From the NCBI GenBank assembly GCA_011524915.1, contig WTJH01000161.1, positions 1 to 32,669 of the forward strand: a stretch of DNA of 32,669 nucleotides, written 5' to 3'. Positions 5,207 through 32,669 of this stretch are shown here, in pieces; position 1 is the stretch's first letter, and each line of letters begins with the position of its first letter. The notes under the pieces were generated by a model, which saw only the letters and a program-made list of their open reading frames with translations, did not search any database and was not told where the DNA came from. A program made the position numbers and the translations under genes. This DNA comes from Flavobacteriales bacterium. Its GTDB lineage: Bacteria; Bacteroidota; Bacteroidia; Flavobacteriales; Flavobacteriaceae.

Positions 5207-6685
5207 CTAGTAAGCTTTAGCGAAAAGTACGCGACCACTAGAGGGCTTTCCGCTAAACACACAAGCTCCTGCTTCTTCCCTCTGGTTCAAGGGGATACAA
5301 CGAATGGTAGCCTTGGTTTGCTCTTTGATTTTTTGTTCCGTCTCTTCAGAACCATCCCAATGGGCAGAAATAAATCCACCTTTATTTTTTAAAACTTCCT
5401 TGAATTCATCGAACGAATCCACTTCTGTAATATGCTCTTCACGGAAATTTTTTGCTTTTTGATACAACTCCTGCTGAATTTCGTCCAAAAGCTTGGGCAA
5501 AAGATCTTCTAAAGCGTTGATTTCAACAAATTGTTTGGTTTTGGTATCCCGTCTGGCCAGCTCCACCTGATTTTTTTCCATGTCCTTGGGACCTATAGCC
5601 AAACGAATGGGTACTCCTTTAAGCTCATATTCATTGAACTTAAATCCAGGTTTAAAATTATCGCGATCATCAAACTTTACTCGAAGTCCCAGTTGTAGGA
5701 GTTGAGCTTTGATCTTCTCGGCATAGGCACACACAGCTGCGTACTGCTCTTCGCCCTTGTAGATGGGGACAATGACCACTTGTATGGGAGCTAGATTGGG
5801 CGGTAACACCAATCCCTGATCATCGGAATGTGTCATGATTAAGGCTCCCATCAATCGAGTAGAAACACCCCATGAGGTTGCCCATACATATTCTAAGCCC
5901 CCTTCTTTGGTTGCGTATTTAACATCAAAGGCTTTTGCAAAGTTTTGTCCAAGAAAGTGAGAAGTTCCCGCTTGAAGGGCTTTCCCATCTTGCATAAGTG
6001 CTTCAATACAAAAGGTCTCCTCTGCCCCAGCAAATCGTTCAGAAGCCGATTTAAGCCCTTGAATGACTGGGATGGCCATAAAATTCTCTACAAAATCGGC
6101 ATATACCTGATTCATTTGTTTGGCTTCTGCCAAGGCTTCTTTTCGGGTTTCGTGGGCCGTATGTCCTTCTTGCCACAAAAATTCGGCCGTGCGAAGAAAC
6201 AATCGGGTACGCATCTCCCAGCGTACCACATTGGCCCACTGGTTGAGCAGTATCGGAAGGTCTCTATAGGACTGGATCCAATTTTTATAGGTATTCCAGA
6301 TGATGGCTTCACTGGTGGGCCGAACCACCAACTCCTCCTCCAAACGAGCTTTGGGGTCCACCTGTAATTTTCCAGGCTGATCGGGGTCATTGGTGAGTCT
6401 ATAGTGTGTCACAACGGCACATTCTTTAGCAAAACCTTCCGCATTTTTTTCTTCAGCCTCAAAAAGACTTTTCGGAACAAAAAGGGGGAAGTATGCATTC
6501 TGATGTCCTGTTTCTTTAAACATTTGATCCAATTCGGCTTGCATTTTTTCCCAAATAGCATAACCGTAGGGCTTGATGACCATACATCCACGAACGGCAG
6601 AAGTTTCTGCTAAATCGGCAGATACCACCAGTTCGTTATACCATTTGGAGTAGTCTTGAGCGCGGGGAGTGAGTTTTTTCGCCAT
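5207..6685 (-). CDS. proS: Prolyl-tRNA synthetase (archaeal/eukaryotic-like ProS type)
   Basis: [49 protein letters not shown]...; motifs [38 protein letters not shown]-terminal ...[11 protein letters not shown]. Start at the internal ATG because the upstream TTG (6730) lies inside a candidate promoter (TAGTTTTG, reverse strand 6728-6735). Confidence 0.96.
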
Positions 6686-6768
6686 GAAAAATATTTTGGC
6701 ATAACTTTTGCCATTAATTAAGTGATACAAAACTAAATGTTTCCGTTGAACTACTAAAGAGATTCCAA

Positions 6769-7959: not shown

Positions 7960-7991
7960 AATTGATTGTACATCTAATCCCTAAACATTCT

Positions 7992-9512
7992 ATGAAAAAG
8001 AAAATAGCACTATTCCTATGCCTTGTTTTAAGTACAGCCACCTATTCCTATGGACAATCGCTCAATGATATAATCCGCTATAACAGCGAAAGTCCCCAAG
8101 GAGATGCGCGCTTTATGGCCATGGGAGGAGCCTTTGGAGCTTTGGGTGGAAACTTGTCTGGGATGAGCCAAAACCCTGCTGGAAGTTCGGTTTTTTTGTA
8201 TACAGAATTTGGAGTTACGGCCCAACTCACCAATCAAAACATCCAAACTTCCTATTTTTCGAATACTCAAGATTCAAGTACCGATCGCTTTCAAATACCT
8301 CAATTCGGTGGTGTATTTGTAATGGAAAATACTGCCTCTGATTGGAGTAAAGTCGCCTTTGGTTTTAATATTCAACGCGTTCAGGATTTTAATCAAACAT
8401 TTCGGGCCATTGGCACCAACCCCAACACCGGTCTAGATCAATATTTTTTAAGCTATGCGTCTGGCAATCGTTTGAGTGAGCTCGAACTCCGTAACGGAGA
8501 AAATATTGGAGAGGCCTATGCCGATATAGGAGAAGTATACGGTTTTGGAACACAACAAGCTTTTTTGGGTTATCAAGGGTATATGATCAATCCCGTATCC
8601 TATACAGATAACAATGAAAGCTATGTCTCCAATGCCCAATACAACAGCCTCAACCACGATTATCTAGTCAGCCGATCGGGTTTTCACCGGAAGTACACCT
8701 TTAACTTTAGTGCAGCCTATAAAAATCGTTTTCATCTGGGGCTAAACATCAACAGCCATCAGGTGGATTTTGAAGAGCGAAACGATTTGGAAGAAAGGGG
8801 CTACACTTCCGATTCTGGAGTCGAGTTTGCCAAATTCACCAACGATCTCAGTAGTCTAGGGAGAGGAATCTCTTTTGAATTGGGGGCCATCGCCTTGTAC
8901 AAGGATCTGAGGATTGGATGGAGCTATCAGAGTCCTACTTGGTTTACTTTTGTCGATGAAGAACAACAACGTTTGGAAGTAGACTACTATTTGAATAATG
9001 ATGATACTTTATACACCGAAATTGTTGAGCCCAGAGTTATCAACGGCTATCCCCAGTACAACTTACGACTTCCTTCTCGAATGACTCTTAGTTTGGCCTA
9101 TATCATCAAAGGGCGGGGGCTTATTTCTGCAGATTTTGGCACTCAAAATCCACAAAACACGCGCTACAACGATGAAAATTTTCCAAATTTAGGAAGCTTA
9201 AACGACCGCATCAAAAATGATTTTGTTCGGGGGAATTTTTTGCGCTTGGGAAGTGAAATCCGCCTCAACGAGCAAATAAGCTTAAGAGCGGGATATCGCA
9301 GCTCTAGTGCTATTCAAAGAAGTGTTCGCCAACAAAATCAGAGTTACAGTCTCGGGTTTGGATACGATATGGGAGACAGTGCTGTAAATGTTGCGCTTGT
9401 CAAACGCGAAAGACACACCCAACAGGGACTTTATTCAAGCGGACTAACGGATCCTATTCAACTACAAACAGCTCCGCTCCAAGTCTTAGCCTCCTATGTT
9501 TTCCGGCTCTAA
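7992..9512 (+). CDS. OmpP1/FadL-like outer membrane transport protein
   Basis: Signal peptide MKKKIALFLCLVLSTATYSYGQ; DARFMAMGGAFGALGGNLSGMSQNPAGSSVF is a typical FadL-like N-terminus; ends in aromatic-type C-terminus ASYVFRL. 32-bp gap from upstream gene suggests an operon. Confidence 0.88.
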   Translation: MKKKIALFLCLVLSTATYSYGQSLNDIIRYNSESPQGDARFMAMGGAFGALGGNLSGMSQNPAGSSVFLYTEFGVTAQLTNQNIQTSYFSNTQDSSTDRFQIPQFGGVFVMENTASDWSKVAFGFNIQRVQDFNQTFRAIGTNPNTGLDQYFLSYASGNRLSELELRNGENIGEAYADIGEVYGFGTQQAFLGYQGYMINPVSYTDNNESYVSNAQYNSLNHDYLVSRSGFHRKYTFNFSAAYKNRFHLGLNINSHQVDFEERNDLEERGYTSDSGVEFAKFTNDLSSLGRGISFELGAIALYKDLRIGWSYQSPTWFTFVDEEQQRLEVDYYLNNDDTLYTEIVEPRVINGYPQYNLRLPSRMTLSLAYIIKGRGLISADFGTQNPQNTRYNDENFPNLGSLNDRIKNDFVRGNFLRLGSEIRLNEQISLRAGYRSSSAIQRSVRQQNQSYSLGFGYDMGDSAVNVALVKRERHTQQGLYSSGLTDPIQLQTAPLQVLASYVFRL

Positions 9513-21339: not shown

Positions 21340-22974
21340 CTAGTTGAAGCGGTTACTAAAGACGATATTTCCACTTAAAATCGTGGCCACAACTCTAGTT
21401 TCTAAAATCTCTTCCTCAGAGACGGTCATTAGATCCTGATCTAAAATGACAAAGTCGGCAAACTTACCCACTTCTATACTCCCCTTGAGTTGGTCTTCAA
21501 AGTTTGCATGAGCAGCCCAAAGGGTCATTCCTTTAAGAGCTTCCAAACGGCTCAAAGCACTTTTGGCTTGGAAACCACCCGCAGGATAGCCTTGCGCATC
21601 TCTTCTGGAAACAGCAGCATAAAAGGTTTTCATGGGAGACACCTCTTCTACAGGAAAATCGGTTCCCAAAGCAATGCTTCCAGACCAGTCCAAAAGTTCT
21701 TTAAATGCATAGGCTCCTGGCATACGGTCTTTGCCAATACGTTGTTCGGCCCAGTACATATCACTTGTCGCGTGGGTAGGCTGTACGGAAGGGATAATTT
21801 TACGGCCAAAACCGCTCCAATCTTTAGGGTCTACAATTTGAGCGTGTTCGATTCGCCAGCGGGGATCTTCGATGGAGGCTAGGACTTCGTTATATATGCG
21901 AAGGACTTCGGCATTGGCCGCATCTCCAATGGCATGTGTATTGAGTTGAAAAGGACTTTGGGCGAGCTTTTGTGCCAACTGGCGGATATCCGCTACAGGA
22001 GTCACAAATTTTCCGTGGTGATCTTGTTGGTCTGTATAGGGCTCTTTAAGAGCAGCTCCCCGAGAACCAAGAGCTCCATCGGCATATACTTTTACACTGT
22101 TGACATGCAACAAATCCGTTTGCAGCTTTCCATTTTTAAGAAAGTAGTCCACAGATGCAGAATCGTTTGCGATCATCGCATAGACCCGAAGTTGAATTCT
22201 TTTGGCTTGTTGAAGGCTGTCCAACAATAGGATGTTTTCTTTGGAAAGTCCGGCATCATCGACTGTCGTAAGCCCGTGTTGCAAACAAATATTCTGAGCC
22301 AGCTCAAAAGCTTTAATTTTTTCGGCCGTAGAAGCTTCGGGAAGTGCCGCATCGATAAGCCCCATGGGAGCATCCACCAAAATACCTGTAAGTACTCCTT
22401 GCTTTTGAACAATAGTTCCCCCCTCGACATCGGTTTCCGCAGTGATCCCAGCCAAATCCAATGCCTTTTGATTCACCAAATACGCATGTCCGTCTATACG
22501 TTCCAGTACCACAGGAGTATCGGGATATAATTGGTCCAATTCCGTTTTTGTGGGATATTGTTGATCTTTCCAATCGTTTTGGTCCCAGCCCCGGCCTCGA
22601 ATAACACTCGGCTGTTTGTCTTTTGCAAATTTCTGAACTCGGTTCAGAATTTCTTCAAAACTTTTGGTACCGACTAGGTCTACTTGTTGTAGGGTAAGCC
22701 CTAGGTTTAACAAATGGCAGTGGGCATCAATAAAACCGGGATAAATAGGCAAATACTGAGCGTTGACCACATTGCGTGCATTGTACTGATCTAAAAGCTC
22801 CTCTCCTCCAACAGCTACAAACTTTCCTTCGTGAACCGCAAAAGCCGTAACCACATCAAATTCGTCGTTTACGGTATATACTTGTGCGTTGTGGACGAGT
22901 AAGTCGATTTCGGGATTGCAGGCTCCTAAGAGTAAAGCGCCCAGCAGCAGGCAGATTTTATGGATAGCTTTCAT
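21340..22974 (-). CDS. Amidohydrolase family lipoprotein (YtcJ-like)
   Basis: Lipobox MKAIHKICLLLGALLLGAC; YPGFIDAHCHLLNLG, RGRGWDQNDW, DGALGSRGAALKEPY, NTHAIGDAAN, RIEHAQIV, ALGTDFPVE motifs. Confidence 0.92.
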   Translation of the reverse strand: MKAIHKICLLLGALLLGACNPEIDLLVHNAQVYTVNDEFDVVTAFAVHEGKFVAVGGEELLDQYNARNVVNAQYLPIYPGFIDAHCHLLNLGLTLQQVDLVGTKSFEEILNRVQKFAKDKQPSVIRGRGWDQNDWKDQQYPTKTELDQLYPDTPVVLERIDGHAYLVNQKALDLAGITAETDVEGGTIVQKQGVLTGILVDAPMGLIDAALPEASTAEKIKAFELAQNICLQHGLTTVDDAGLSKENILLLDSLQQAKRIQLRVYAMIANDSASVDYFLKNGKLQTDLLHVNSVKVYADGALGSRGAALKEPYTDQQDHHGKFVTPVADIRQLAQKLAQSPFQLNTHAIGDAANAEVLRIYNEVLASIEDPRWRIEHAQIVDPKDWSGFGRKIIPSVQPTHATSDMYWAEQRIGKDRMPGAYAFKELLDWSGSIALGTDFPVEEVSPMKTFYAAVSRRDAQGYPAGGFQAKSALSRLEALKGMTLWAAHANFEDQLKGSIEVGKFADFVILDQDLMTVSEEEILETRVVATILSGNIVFSNRFN

Positions 22975-23025: not shown

Positions 23026-24777
23026 TTATAAGTTCAGGTTAAATCGATATTGGACTCCCGCTAAAAACAACTGTTGAAATTGGGGAAAGCCAAGCCAGCG
23101 ACTGTTGGGGTCGCCCGTATTGAGTTGTAGTCTCGAAAAAATTTCCCAGCGCGGATGCAACTGATATAAAACCTCCGCTTGGACTTGTGAAAAAGCTGCT
23201 ACATCTACCACGGTTGCAGGATTATCACCCGGGTTCAAATTATTGAAATAGGTGTAGGAAGCACCTTTTCGGTTGCCTACAAAAGTATATTTCAATTGTA
23301 CTTGAGCTTTTTTAAACAAGCGAACAAAAGCTTTGGCAGAAGCTTCGATTTCTGGAATGTTCCAAGCAGCCTCTAAAGTTTCCGTTTCCGGATCCCGATA
23401 CACCGCTTCGAACTGTAGGCTGTTGTCTTTCCCAAAGCTGTAGGCCAAGGTCGAATGAAAACTCAGTTGATTAAAGGCATCGTAAACCCTCTGGAAAGCG
23501 TTGGAATATTCGAAAGCTTTTAGATTGTTTCCTTGCTGGTAGGGCAAGCGCTTAAAAAATCCTTTGCGGTCGTATTGCTCGTATTGAGCCTCCCACATAA
23601 AATCAATTTTTTTACCAATGGCCGAATGAAACCCAAGCTGCGCCTTAAAAATTTGCACTTCGGGAAGTATGTTAACCACGGGAGCTATAAACGGATTTTG
23701 CGAACTCAATTCTTGAAGACTCCAAATTTGCTCCCCTCCAGTGGCTTTGATAAAGGGTCTTAAACTTCCTTTTTTAGGTTTAATTTCCAATTGAAATTCT
23801 GGATAAATTCCCAGTTCAGCGCTTTCTGCCTGCGCATCGTCCGTAAAGTACTGCGCCACCTTTGCTCCGACTTGCCATTTGAGGCGTTGTCCCAAACGGG
23901 TCCACATCAAAGCTGCTTGCCCCACCCCATGGGTATATTCGGCCGCGGTAGCTCTTAAAAAATCCTCCGTAAAACTGTTTTGTCCCCCTGTAAAATTAAG
24001 TTTAAGATCGACAAAAGAACTCCCTAAATCGGCTCTGAATCGGGGATTAAATACCAAAAAAGTTTCTCGAGTTTCAAACGAATCTCCATAGAGATGCAGT
24101 TGAAGGGGGATTTCATTAACTATCCCATCATAGTTGCGCCACTGGGTTTGGAGTTGGAAATAGGTCCGCTTGTTGATGGGGTCCAAACTTTCAAGGGCAT
24201 CTTCCAACACATTGGGAACATCTAAGAGGCCGTAGAAATTATTCTGGTGGGCCTGAAATTTTAAACGGGTATCCCAACGGCTGTTGCGGAGGGTATAGTT
24301 ATGAGTGAGCAGCCCGCTGAATTGTGAGCGATGGGTGGGCAACCGCTGTTCGGCAAGATTTCTAGAAGTCTCGTCATAGAGCAATTCCAATCCAAAGGTT
24401 TGAACACGATCCAGTACAACCGATGCAGCTGCATTTAAATAGGTTTGTCCACTACCGCCAACACCCAAAGCCCCCAAAGCATTGTAGAGGGGTCCGGTTT
24501 GTTTGCGTTGCAATTTTAAGGGAGTAGCCTTGTTGGGAGTAAAGGTGGAAACGACAGGGAAATCCTCAAAACTAAAGGTGACACTTTGCTGCTTTTGAGC
24601 TAAGGAATCATAGGTTTGCGGTTTGGGGCGTTGTTTAAACACCTTGATCACTTCGGGATTAAACGATTTTACTACCGTCACCTGCTGTGCTTCGATGCTA
24701 GGCTCTTTTTCTTGGGCCTGTAACAGCTGAACCGAAACGAAAAAGCCCCAAAGGAACCAATGCTGTTTAATTCTCAT
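23026..24777 (-). CDS. Outer membrane beta-barrel / TonB-receptor-like protein without recognisable plug
   Basis: Signal peptide (...FFVSVQLLQAQEKE), VTVVKSFNPEVIKVFKQRPKPQ..., FEDFPVVSTFTPNKATPLK, alternating aromatic beta strands, C-terminal GVQYRFNLNL. Confidence 0.78.
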   Translation of the reverse strand: MRIKQHWFLWGFFVSVQLLQAQEKEPSIEAQQVTVVKSFNPEVIKVFKQRPKPQTYDSLAQKQQSVTFSFEDFPVVSTFTPNKATPLKLQRKQTGPLYNALGALGVGGSGQTYLNAAASVVLDRVQTFGLELLYDETSRNLAEQRLPTHRSQFSGLLTHNYTLRNSRWDTRLKFQAHQNNFYGLLDVPNVLEDALESLDPINKRTYFQLQTQWRNYDGIVNEIPLQLHLYGDSFETRETFLVFNPRFRADLGSSFVDLKLNFTGGQNSFTEDFLRATAAEYTHGVGQAALMWTRLGQRLKWQVGAKVAQYFTDDAQAESAELGIYPEFQLEIKPKKGSLRPFIKATGGEQIWSLQELSSQNPFIAPVVNILPEVQIFKAQLGFHSAIGKKIDFMWEAQYEQYDRKGFFKRLPYQQGNNLKAFEYSNAFQRVYDAFNQLSFHSTLAYSFGKDNSLQFEAVYRDPETETLEAAWNIPEIEASAKAFVRLFKKAQVQLKYTFVGNRKGASYTYFNNLNPGDNPATVVDVAAFSQVQAEVLYQLHPRWEIFSRLQLNTGDPNSRWLGFPQFQQLFLAGVQYRFNLNL

Positions 24778-27700
24778 TCGATGGGTTTTCTAAGGATTCG
24801 ACAGAGGCGTTTTCTTCTCCCAAGCGTTGGGTTACTTGTACTTGTAGTTCTAACGCTCGATCTGATATTTCGGGCGTTGAAGCATAATTTTCTAAAACAC
24901 TTTTAACGATAAAATCGGCCTGAAAGGCATCGCCCAAATCCAAAAAGTTTTGAGCCATCACCAAAAGTGCTTGCCCACCAATCAGGCTTTCGGAAGCATA
25001 CTTTTGAGCAATAAGAGCAATTTTAGCATTGGAATCTTCGAACTGTTTTTGGGTTCTCAACTGCTTGGCCTGCCATAAAAGTGCTTTCGCAGCCCGCTGG
25101 GCACTCGGGGCATCTACCAAACGTGCATAGGCTTGTTCTACGGCTTGGGCCTTTCCTAAAACCGTTCCCGCTTCTGCGATCAACTGTTGGGCATCCCAGT
25201 AGATCTGGGGGTCTAAATTAGGATCCTTTAAAAGGGCTTGGGCTTTGTCGAAGGCCTGTTCAAATTGTTGGTCGCTGGCATAGGCCTGCATCAGGTTCAC
25301 CGCTGCATATTGTTTGTTTTCCTCAAAATCAGCTTCTTGCTCCAGGCGTTCAAGAATCTGTATCAACTCCTTGGTTTGTCCCAAAGACCGAGCACATACA
25401 CTGGCCCGTACCAAAGATTTTTCACTGAATTCGTTGATGCCCGCCTCATACACTTCTCTGTAGGCGATCAGGGCATCTTTCCAGTTATCCGATTCAAAAT
25501 AGAGTTCTCCCTGATAGAAAACGACATTTCTACGATAGATGCCTTCTGGATATTGAGCTAAATATTCCAGTATGCTTTTTTGGGCTGCTTTGCTTTTGCC
25601 CTCCTGAAAGGTTTTGTCTAAAGCCTGGAAAGCAGTTTTTTCCAATTCGGCATCGCTCATGGTGGGCACTTCCAAAGAACGGACCCAAAGGGTAAATTGA
25701 TTGACTTCTCCGATATCTACCGCAATTTCTTTAGCCAAACGAACGGCTTCGGCCACCACAACATCTTTGGGGTACTGATCCACCAAAGCCCGCAGGGTTA
25801 ACAAAGCTTCTTTGGCCTGATCGCGGTTATACAGCAACAGCGCTTTAGCCAGATAGGCACGAGTTCTGTAGGGACTTTGGGTTTGTTCGCTGATCAATAA
25901 ATCAAAGGTCTGCAAGGCTTCTTCTGGCTGGTCTTCAGCAGCTAGAGTATTGGCCAATTCAAAAATGGCATCGTCTCGTAAGGGCACTTTGGGATACTGC
26001 TCCAATAAGCGTTTAAGGGTACTTATTTTTTGAGCTTTCCGATCCACAAACCCGTAGCTCATCGCTTTTTGATAATAGGCATAAGAACTGCGCTTGGGAG
26101 CCATGGCTATGGCGCTGTTATAGGCTTCCAGAGCGGGCCAAAACGCCCGAAGGGCATAGTGGCTATCGGCCAGTCGCAACTGTGCATCTCTCCGTTTGGA
26201 ATCGGCTGGAGCAACCGTCTTTAAAAAACTTTCAAAGGCCGTAAGAGCCTCCTCATAGGCTTTCAGCTTAAATCGGGCATAACCCAGATGGTAGGGCAAC
26301 TCCTGCGCTTCTTCCCCTGCAGTTCCGGCAGTGCTTTTTTGAGCTGCTTCCCAAGCTTTTTGAGCTTTGGCATATTGGCGTTGTTCATAATAGGCATGTC
26401 CGTTCCAATACTGGCTTAGAAATACAAAAGCCTCCCCTTTGTGTTTGAGGGCCGCTTCGAAATATTCGTTTGCCTGAGAATATTTGGCAGTGCTGTATTT
26501 TTCGACCCCAATCAAAAAGGCTAATTTTTGGAGGGTATTTTCTTCTTTAAGATTTCCAGAGTTTTGGAGTAAGGTGTAGGCCGCTTCGAAATTTCCAGAA
26601 CTGGTTAAGGAATCCACCAAAAGGGCTTCGATTTCTTCGGTTGCAGGATCCTTAGGGTATTTTTCTAAAAAGTGCTGCAAGACTTTTGGGGGAGCCTCAT
26701 AGGGGTTTCCAATGGCATAGCTAAGACGGGCATAATTGAGCATGGCCGCCCGTTGGATAGCCGCATCTGAACTTTTCTGACTGGCGGATCGGAAAGCGTT
26801 TAGCGCCTCCGTTTTTTTATCTGTTTTTAAGTAACAAAGGCCCAGATGATAGTAGGCATGCTGGATGAGAGCTGTATTTTTCCCCAGGATTTTATTGAAT
26901 TGGCCGATGGCTTTTTCATAGTCCTGCGCCTGAAAATAGGCATAGCCCAACTGATAAAAGTCTTCGTTGGTCCAGCGTTTGCGTTTGCCCTCATAGGCCT
27001 CTAGATAGGGCAAAGCCTTGGTGTATTCTTGCAGGTTAAAATAACTTTCTCCGATGATCTTGGACAACTGAGATTTATCGTTTCCTTTGGCATTCCTGTA
27101 CTGTTGCTCCCCCAAACGGATGGCTTCTTGGAAGCGTCCCAATCGGAAATTCATATCCACTTGGAAATAGGCCACATCGCCCTGTTTTTTCTTGTTGCTT
27201 TTTCCAAAGGCAGAGGTGGCACTTTCAAAATCATCGAGCTGATAAGCAATATGTCCCAGATAATAATGGGCATCCGACTCATAGGTAGGATGGTCCACTA
27301 CCCGCTCTAGATAGGGTTTGGCGGCTTTGTATTTTTTGGTAGCAAAATAGGTATAGCCCTTGTTGAAATTGTATTTAGGAATATCGCGTTTGGGAACATC
27401 AGCGGCTTTAACCTTCCCATACCACTTCAGGGCATAGCTGTATTTTTGTTGGTCGAAATAGTAGTTGGCCAAATCGAAATTGACGCGATCTACCTGAGGA
27501 TTTAAAGGATAGTTGATTTGAAATTGCTGTAAAAGCTTTTCGCTCCCGGACTGATTGAGTCGAAGTTTGGCCTTGGTTTCCAACAAAGCAAAGTGCTCCT
27601 GAGCCGAACTTCGATCGGCAAAATCGGTCCGCCCCTCTAAGGCAATATTGGCAATGCCAAAGTCTTGCGCCAAATAGCGGCCCATCAGTTGGGTTTCGAA

Positions 27701-27784
27701 ATCGTAGGAAGAATTTTGCTGACTCCACCCCAAAACACCGCTGCAAAGGAGAAAAATGGCAAAAATCGGCTGCTGCTTGAACAT
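24767..27784 (-). CDS. Large tetratricopeptide-repeat protein (1005 aa), exported
   Basis: Signal peptide MFKQQPIFAIFLLCSGVLGWSQQ; many TPR-like units (e.g. EDFYQLGYAYFQAQDYEKAIGQFNKIL, QHAYYHLGLCYLKTDKKTEALNAFRSA). 11-bp overlap with downstream barrel gene. Confidence 0.92.
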   Translation of the reverse strand: MFKQQPIFAIFLLCSGVLGWSQQNSSYDFETQLMGRYLAQDFGIANIALEGRTDFADRSSAQEHFALLETKAKLRLNQSGSEKLLQQFQINYPLNPQVDRVNFDLANYYFDQQKYSYALKWYGKVKAADVPKRDIPKYNFNKGYTYFATKKYKAAKPYLERVVDHPTYESDAHYYLGHIAYQLDDFESATSAFGKSNKKKQGDVAYFQVDMNFRLGRFQEAIRLGEQQYRNAKGNDKSQLSKIIGESYFNLQEYTKALPYLEAYEGKRKRWTNEDFYQLGYAYFQAQDYEKAIGQFNKILGKNTALIQHAYYHLGLCYLKTDKKTEALNAFRSASQKSSDAAIQRAAMLNYARLSYAIGNPYEAPPKVLQHFLEKYPKDPATEEIEALLVDSLTSSGNFEAAYTLLQNSGNLKEENTLQKLAFLIGVEKYSTAKYSQANEYFEAALKHKGEAFVFLSQYWNGHAYYEQRQYAKAQKAWEAAQKSTAGTAGEEAQELPYHLGYARFKLKAYEEALTAFESFLKTVAPADSKRRDAQLRLADSHYALRAFWPALEAYNSAIAMAPKRSSYAYYQKAMSYGFVDRKAQKISTLKRLLEQYPKVPLRDDAIFELANTLAAEDQPEEALQTFDLLISEQTQSPYRTRAYLAKALLLYNRDQAKEALLTLRALVDQYPKDVVVAEAVRLAKEIAVDIGEVNQFTLWVRSLEVPTMSDAELEKTAFQALDKTFQEGKSKAAQKSILEYLAQYPEGIYRRNVVFYQGELYFESDNWKDALIAYREVYEAGINEFSEKSLVRASVCARSLGQTKELIQILERLEQEADFEENKQYAAVNLMQAYASDQQFEQAFDKAQALLKDPNLDPQIYWDAQQLIAEAGTVLGKAQAVEQAYARLVDAPSAQRAAKALLWQAKQLRTQKQFEDSNAKIALIAQKYASESLIGGQALLVMAQNFLDLGDAFQADFIVKSVLENYASTPEISDRALELQVQVTQRLGEENASVESLENPSNEN

Positions 27785-27881: not shown

Positions 27882-27889
27882 TATCTTTG
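27882..27889 (+). promoter_or_regulatory. Putative -7 element of ftsE promoter
   Basis: TATCTTTG 18 bp upstream of ATG 27908; ORF start 27887 would lie inside it. Confidence 0.5.
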
Positions 27890-27907
27890 GAATACAGCAA
27901 TGTTTCT

Positions 27908-28582
27908 ATGGATGTAATTGTTTCGCTCGAAAATGCGACCATCTACCAAGACCAAAAACCCGTTCTTATGGGGGTTAATTTGTCGGTAGAAAAAGGATCT
28001 TTTGTCTTTTTAATCGGCCGAACGGGAACCGGAAAAAGTAGCCTGATCAAAACCCTCTATGGCGATCTAAGCCTAGAAGAAGGCAGCGGGAGCACGGTAG
28101 GCTTTGCCCTCAATGGACTTCGGGATCGAGACATTCCCCAACTTCGACGTAAGATTGGAGTGGTTTTTCAGGATTTTAAACTCCTGCCCGACCGCAATAT
28201 CAAGGAAAACCTGGCCTTTGTCCTAAGAGCTACCGGCTGGAAGGATAAGACCAAAATTGAAAGTCGAATTCTGGAAGTGTTGCAGATGGTAAAGGTCGAT
28301 AATGCCTTGGGGAAATTTCCCTTTGAACTTTCGGGAGGAGAACAACAACGACTGGCCATTGCCCGAGCCTTACTAAACGAACCCGAACTGATCATTGCCG
28401 ACGAACCCACCGGAAATCTCGACCCACAAACCAGTATCGAGATCATGGAACTGTTTAAAGAACTCCACCAAAAAGGGATGACCCTGCTGATGGCCACCCA
28501 CGACTATAATATGATCCTAAAGTACCCCGGAAAAATCTTCCAATGCGAGGATGGGAAAATCTTTGAGGTCGTCGCTCAATAA
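27908..28582 (+). CDS. ftsE: Cell division ATP-binding protein FtsE
   Basis: Walker A GRTGTGKSSL, VVFQDFKLLPDRNIKENLAFVLRATGW (FtsE-type Q-loop region), LSGGEQQRLAIARAL, EPTGNLDP, ATHDYNMI. Confidence 0.9.
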   Translation: MDVIVSLENATIYQDQKPVLMGVNLSVEKGSFVFLIGRTGTGKSSLIKTLYGDLSLEEGSGSTVGFALNGLRDRDIPQLRRKIGVVFQDFKLLPDRNIKENLAFVLRATGWKDKTKIESRILEVLQMVKVDNALGKFPFELSGGEQQRLAIARALLNEPELIIADEPTGNLDPQTSIEIMELFKELHQKGMTLLMATHDYNMILKYPGKIFQCEDGKIFEVVAQ

Positions 28583-32272: not shown

Positions 32273-32669
32273 GGGGTCGACTGGTTTTGACAGCAGATGC
32301 CATAGAAACGTAAGCAAGTCGAGCGCTGAAATACAGCTCGTAAATCTCATGTTTTAGCTTTTTAAATGGCGAAAATAACTACGCTCTAGCTGCATAATTT
32401 GACCGAATTATAGTACGTCAATGCCAAGTCCCGACTAGGTCGGGAAGCTGGATGTCTCCTAATAGCCCTTGTTGACGGCGATTAATTTAGAGACACCATA
32501 AAAGTCAACAGCGAAATGCATCGGCATCGGATGTGTTTTGTATTGAGATGCTACGATAGATATAGGCTGTTTTTGGTCAGTATCTTTCCGACAATTAAGC
32601 AAAAACTAAACTTGTAGAAAGCCTTTTTATCATTTGTTTGGACGCGGGTTCGATTCCCGCCGACTCCAC
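32273..32669 (+). ncRNA. ssrA: tmRNA; 3' end (CCA) at or just beyond window edge
   Basis: 5' GGGGTCGACTGGTTTTGACAG pairs with 3' CGACTCC; tag ORF GGC GAA AAT AAC TAC GCT CTA GCT GCA TAA = GENNYALAA* at 32368-32397; T-arm GCGGGTTCGATTCCCGC. Confidence 0.98.

Follow-up and report, generated by a model that had tools for sequence, protein, structure and literature searches.

A 2025 survey did not find tol-pal loci in Bacteroidetes, and no Pal lipoprotein was found there either (PMC12204202). How, then, do these bacteria keep up their outer membrane and constrict it? The survey raised this question for Bacteroidota that lack Tol-Pal and nominated PorE, proposed as a tether between the outer membrane and the wall (PMC12204202).

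Here we analyse two adjacent genes of a Flavobacteriales bacterium, one for an exported TPR protein and one for an outer-membrane barrel. The literature that we searched contains no paper describing the barrel-TPR pair by title or abstract. A first-pass annotation of the same DNA had taken the pair for a secretion or envelope-assembly module rather than a nutrient receptor. We report that outside Bacteroidia the pair continues into genes for a SPOR-domain protein, ExbB, ExbD and TonB, an arrangement that is new here. A near-universal, single-copy and Ton-linked pair of this kind is a concrete, genetically testable candidate for outer-membrane upkeep without Tol-Pal. If the idea holds, TonB acts on a barrel that has no plug, and force transmission is separated from plug opening. 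The phylum includes major gut commensals and oral bacteria, and the pair could be a target in their envelope.

RESULTS

The gene pair and its surroundings

The window is one whole contig of 32.7 kb (32,669 nucleotides) out of a 2.07-Mb assembly; its features are listed in Table 1. We confirmed the two open reading frames of 583 and 1005 amino acids and the junction at which the barrel ATG overlaps the TPR stop. Both products have a signal-peptide-like start and no lipobox cysteine, as judged by reading the sequence. The overlap had suggested translational coupling. It is present in the window but is lineage-specific, and we reject coupling as a general feature of the pair. In most relatives the genes are separated by 6-98 bp, and in some a phzF-like gene intervenes; the overlap is thus a local detail. 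Such a gene lies between the TPR and barrel genes at locus L070 (5898-7001), with similar Flavobacterium loci at L076, L095, L109 and L126; the pair thus tolerates insertions.

The FtsE-like gene next to the pair recurs at 84 of 100 loci from the family and order. Elsewhere in the window, a 516-aa PorV/FadL-like outer-membrane protein is encoded at 7962-9512 (+), beside a prolyl-tRNA synthetase-like ORF (5207-6730). We suspected it to be BamG of the Bacteroidota BAM complex, but a PDB sequence search was empty, and NCBIfam gave only a weak PorV-family match (5e-6). A tmRNA gene (tag GENNYALAA) occupies the extreme end of the contig, at 32273-32669 (+).

Table 1. Features of the gene pair and its neighbours, in window coordinates
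Feature	Position	Strand	Description and basis
TPR gene, upstream member of the pair	24767..27784	(-)	1005-aa exported periplasmic TPR solenoid, predicted from ORF, Pfam and model
TPR protein, most conserved stretch (about residues 205-315)	26840..27172	(-)	Dense invariant columns in the family alignment
Overlap of TPR stop and barrel start (ATG at 24777)	24767..24777	(-)	11 bp, ATGAGAATTAA; lineage-specific
Barrel gene	23026..24777	(-)	583-aa plug-less outer-membrane barrel, probably TBDT-derived, about 22 strands; ORF, model, Foldseek, Plug search
Barrel N-terminal segment (residues 22-91)	24505..24714	(-)	In the plug's place; unfolded in the model, conserved across the class
Putative TonB-box-like strand QQVTVVKSFNP (barrel residues 31-41)	24655..24687	(-)	Aligned to the motif of distant orthologues
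FtsE-like ATPase gene, divergent, upstream neighbour outside the pair	27887..28582	(+)	NCBIfam best model FtsE, 8e-71, slightly under cut-off
Amidohydrolase-like gene	21340-22974		Downstream of the pair

A transporter-type barrel without a plug

AlphaFold2, run on 51 aligned sequences, predicts a confident barrel over about residues 92-583, with some 22 strands (counted by hand from the DSSP list) and no plug. In a Foldseek search of the PDB this model matched the TonB-dependent transporters (TBDTs) FrpB, BtuB, ZnuD and OprC with E about 1e-15. By predicted model and Foldseek, then, the 583-aa protein has the 22-stranded barrel of a TonB-dependent transporter. At the sequence level, TonB_dep_Rec_b-barrel gave weak matches in 7 of 30 family members, and a PDB sequence search with the barrel returned no solved relative.

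The first-pass annotation recognised no plug in this protein, and our results agree. In the model, residues 21-91 are unfolded, with pLDDT about 30 and no secondary structure, while residues 100-579 are confidently placed in a barrel. Pfam Plug (PF07715) is absent from all 30 family members and from all seven barrels of more distant relatives; an ordinary TBDT from the same phylum, our positive control, matched Plug at 2.9e-23. The short N-terminal segment quoted earlier is present. Unfolded as it is, it belongs to the most conserved parts of the barrel, reading TEVVNVVKPYTPTISDAFKIK...YSIFSVPVASTFTPAKGKA in Flavobacteriaceae and remaining recognisable class-wide. The best reading is that the barrel descends from TonB-dependent transporters and has lost the plug.

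The TPR protein

The partner matches Pfam TPR_16 at 4e-24, along with other TPR models, and its predicted structure is an all-helical solenoid (pLDDT 86). Orthologues across the phylum are about 1000 aa long. Searches for a specific relative returned generic matches: TPR proteins alone in a PDB sequence search, and generic solenoids alone with Foldseek. The YbgF/CpoB model TIGR02795 scores 154 bits against a cut-off of 90, although this model responds to repeated TPRs in many proteins. Its conservation makes the stretch around residues 205-315 a candidate binding surface. At the C-terminus (residues 985-1005) the family keeps a tail, EAKTNSS(I/V), with N992 and S994 invariant, which is disordered in the model; possibly it serves as a docking peptide. 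In one genome the TPR protein has an additional, partial homologue, encoded far from the pair (G061:C1:1170328-1172604, E 4.9e-197).

Distribution in Bacteroidia

The barrel is a single-copy, near-universal protein of Bacteroidia: a class-wide profile finds it in 228 of 237 genomes, and 222 of these matches have E values under 1e-10. The pairing is equally regular. In the 29 same-family relatives every barrel gene (29/29) is immediately preceded by the TPR gene in the same orientation. The same holds in 79 of 80 named genomes, where the sole exception is cut by a contig end, and at 28 of 28 further loci drawn from the order and class outside this family. The first-pass annotation had placed the pair in Flavobacteriia; its recurrence extends far beyond them, to genomes outside Bacteroidia as well. 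The neighbourhood comparison that it had called for finds the two genes linked in relatives. No cargo genes were found to recur around the pair.

Genomes that lack the barrel usually lack the TPR protein too (G324, G336, G370, G420, G450 and, with weak matches, G330, G360, G400 and G476). In others the barrel is missing and the gene lies near a contig end (G345, G410, G454, G501). G369 keeps the TPR protein with no barrel detected, and G468 has a diverged barrel adjoining it. Both members are absent from well-assembled, SprA-positive Bacteroidia of two genera, one represented by G450 and G476 and the other by G336, G370 and G400. Given G450 and G476, any machine built on the pair must be dispensable in some members of the class.

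Ton genes and a TonB-box-like motif

Beyond Bacteroidia we sampled 39 genomes, and the TPR protein was detected in 33. The typical gene order there is TPR, barrel, SPOR-domain protein, ExbB, ExbD and TonB, as confirmed by Pfam. The SPOR-domain protein of this distant operon often has an HU-like N-terminus, and the C-terminus of the transducer matches TonB_C. In 12 of the 33 TPR-bearing genomes no more than about 5 kb separates the whole pair from an ExbB-family gene. In 6 more the barrel alone heads the SPOR-ExbB-ExbD-TonB series; at the loci that were read out, FtsK and an LPG-synthase-like gene precede it. Linkage of the pair or the barrel to ExbB thus occurs in 18 of 33 genomes, a count inflated by relatedness, against about 0.4 expected by chance, given genomes of about 3 Mb with 1-5 ExbB-family genes each. 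About eleven sampled families are represented.

Some Bacteroidia have the order barrel-ExbB-ExbD-TonB-FolC (loci L033, L161, L168 and L171, with no TonB detected at L170 and the TPR gene alone at L215). In the window genome ExbB-ExbD-TonB-FolC lies on another contig, with the TonB gene at L261:8615-9466. The pair is away from motor genes in the window and in most Flavobacteriaceae, which counts against assigning it to a Ton-driven machine. The TonB linked to the pair could be that of the housekeeping Ton system. Subtype models rank the ExbB and ExbD of the module best on TolQ and TolR, below cut-off; a control ExbB was ranked no differently, so this comparison is not decisive and was not used.

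Near the mature N-terminus, 22 of 28 barrels from outside Bacteroidia carry a motif of the LPxFVITG type, such as IELPDFVITG or VELPDFVITG. We take this motif to resemble the TonB box of classical receptors. The pattern was defined post hoc; in the rest of these proteins it occurs in 2 of 183 stretches of sixty residues. Since the aligned position has diverged to VxVxKxYxP in Bacteroidia barrels, the window protein included, we infer the TonB-box-like strand of the latter, putatively QQVTVVKSFNP, from the alignment. Overall, a functional connection between the pair and Ton is probable.

These results change part of the earlier picture. The TBDT-derived barrel, the TonB-box-like motif of distant relatives and the ExbB-ExbD-TonB operon had not been foreseen; together they give the annotation 'TonB-dependent receptor' a real basis. 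A plug together with a TonB box had been named as evidence against the module idea. Judging from the distant orthologues, a TonB box probably exists; the plug does not.

Complementary distribution with TolB

Among 248 genomes of the phylum, the TPR profile was found in 175 and a strong TolB match in 53, with no co-occurrence; 20 have neither protein. With the TolB model TIGR02800 (E <= 1e-60), neither the window genome nor any sampled genome with the TPR protein gave a match. All 53 TolB-bearing genomes are TPR-free members of one family, and because TolB is confined to it, the exclusivity represents one evolutionary event.

DISCUSSION

What might the pair do? Our leading proposal, a tentative one, is that the plug-less, TBDT-derived barrel and the TPR scaffold make up the outer-membrane and periplasmic end of a Ton/Tol-type machine driven by the proton-motive force, most likely for envelope coupling and constriction in place of Tol-Pal. 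ExbB and ExbD in the inner membrane would drive a TonB-like transducer, which would grasp the flexible N-terminal tail of the barrel through the TonB-box-like strand. The long TPR solenoid would act as a periplasmic scaffold, binding the barrel, probably through its conserved tail, and bridging to wall-associated partners such as the SPOR-domain protein of the ancestral operon. The ligand of SPOR domains is denuded septal peptidoglycan. The outer membrane would then be pulled or held to the wall in growth and division, which is the work of Tol-Pal, a system absent from most of the phylum. The physical complex of barrel and TPR protein, the binding of TonB and the job itself we infer from gene order, motifs and models.

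The cell-division neighbours of the pair (FtsE-like, FtsK and SPOR) support such a machine. Together with single copy and near-universality, they also agree better with the earlier view of an envelope module than with a nutrient receptor. The proposal of PorE as the tether between outer membrane and wall counts against the pair as a stand-in for Tol-Pal. It is conceivable, though more doubtful than the proposal above, that most Bacteroidota share one proton-driven machine that replaces Tol-Pal and constricts and stabilises the outer membrane by means of a Ton motor, a TonB-box tail, the barrel, the TPR scaffold and a septal SPOR protein.

Among the possible tasks we rank envelope coupling and constriction first and an export or assembly channel driven by TonB second, although we consider the latter rather unlikely. 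A wide plug-less pore would pass proteins, lipoproteins or polymers or help to insert them at the outer membrane, with the TPR solenoid bringing the cargo and keeping the pore closed; such a channel might be the missing surface-lipoprotein flippase or an analogue of Oar in PopC secretion. A 22-stranded barrel without a plug would, on the model, make a large pore, and the many-TPR partner and the TonB linkage are also in keeping with a channel. There is precedent in Myxococcus, where the TBDT Oar is needed for PopC secretion (PMC6434023), and the surface-lipoprotein flippase of Bacteroidota is not yet known (PMC12578637). A secretion role, as first suggested, is possible. Yet a channel alone leaves the SPOR partner, the FtsE and FtsK neighbours and the exclusivity with TolB unexplained; recurring cargo genes are absent from the neighbourhood, and SprA-positive genomes without the pair exist.

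The separation of the pair from motor genes in most Bacteroidia, and the failure of subtype models to single out a dedicated motor, would suit a structural tether that needs no energy: the barrel would give the TPR rod its hold on the outer membrane, and the TonB genes nearby would serve other receptors. The recurrent ExbB-ExbD-TonB operon in about eleven families outside Bacteroidia and the TonB-box-like motif speak against such a tether, and we regard it as improbable. Least credible of all is that the barrel is a nutrient receptor that has diverged, or that the pair is an accessory to the type IX secretion system (T9SS). The TBDT-type barrel, the weak TonB_dep_Rec_b-barrel matches, the TonB linkage and the fact that the T9SS marker and the pair are both common in Bacteroidia point in this direction, but the barrel is linked to the TPR protein phylum-wide. 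We reject a nutrient receptor as unlikely, since the barrel has no plug and is single-copy and near-universal, unlike nutrient receptors. We reject a T9SS part because the distribution is independent of SprA both ways: the pair occurs without SprA in G061, G285, G293 and G423, and SprA without the pair in G336, G370, G400, G450 and G476.

How, finally, does the proposed machine compare with described systems? With TBDTs of the BtuB, FrpB and ZnuD type the barrel shares its fold, sequence similarity in the terminal strands, an operon with ExbB-ExbD-TonB and, in distant orthologues, a TonB-box-like N-terminus. Unlike them, it has no plug, an obligatory TPR partner gene, a single copy and a near-universal distribution. 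Slam likewise joins a TPR part to an outer-membrane barrel, but here the two are separate proteins and the barrel matches TBDTs. We rejected Slam on the grounds of the separate genes, a Slam TPR match of only 0.013 (below cut-off) and the Foldseek result. The Bacteroidota BAM complexes (BamA-D-G-H-M-P and BamG-K) also serve the outer membrane, are specific to the phylum and include an accessory barrel; their published subunits, however, include no TPR partner or TBDT-like barrel, BamG being FadL-like. The pair is not in the published complexes, and its relatives in PDB sequence searches are generic TPRs, so we rejected a BAM subunit as well. PorE, like the pair, is proposed to assume Tol-Pal duties (PMC12204202), but it consists of one multidomain lipoprotein, which binds the wall through an OmpA-like domain, and has no barrel. 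With Tol-Pal itself the module would share a proton-driven motor and transducer, a TPR protein, links to division genes and a distribution complementary to that of TolB. It differs in having neither TolB nor Pal, in ending at the outer membrane in a barrel rather than a lipoprotein, and in the TonB-like C-terminus of its transducer.
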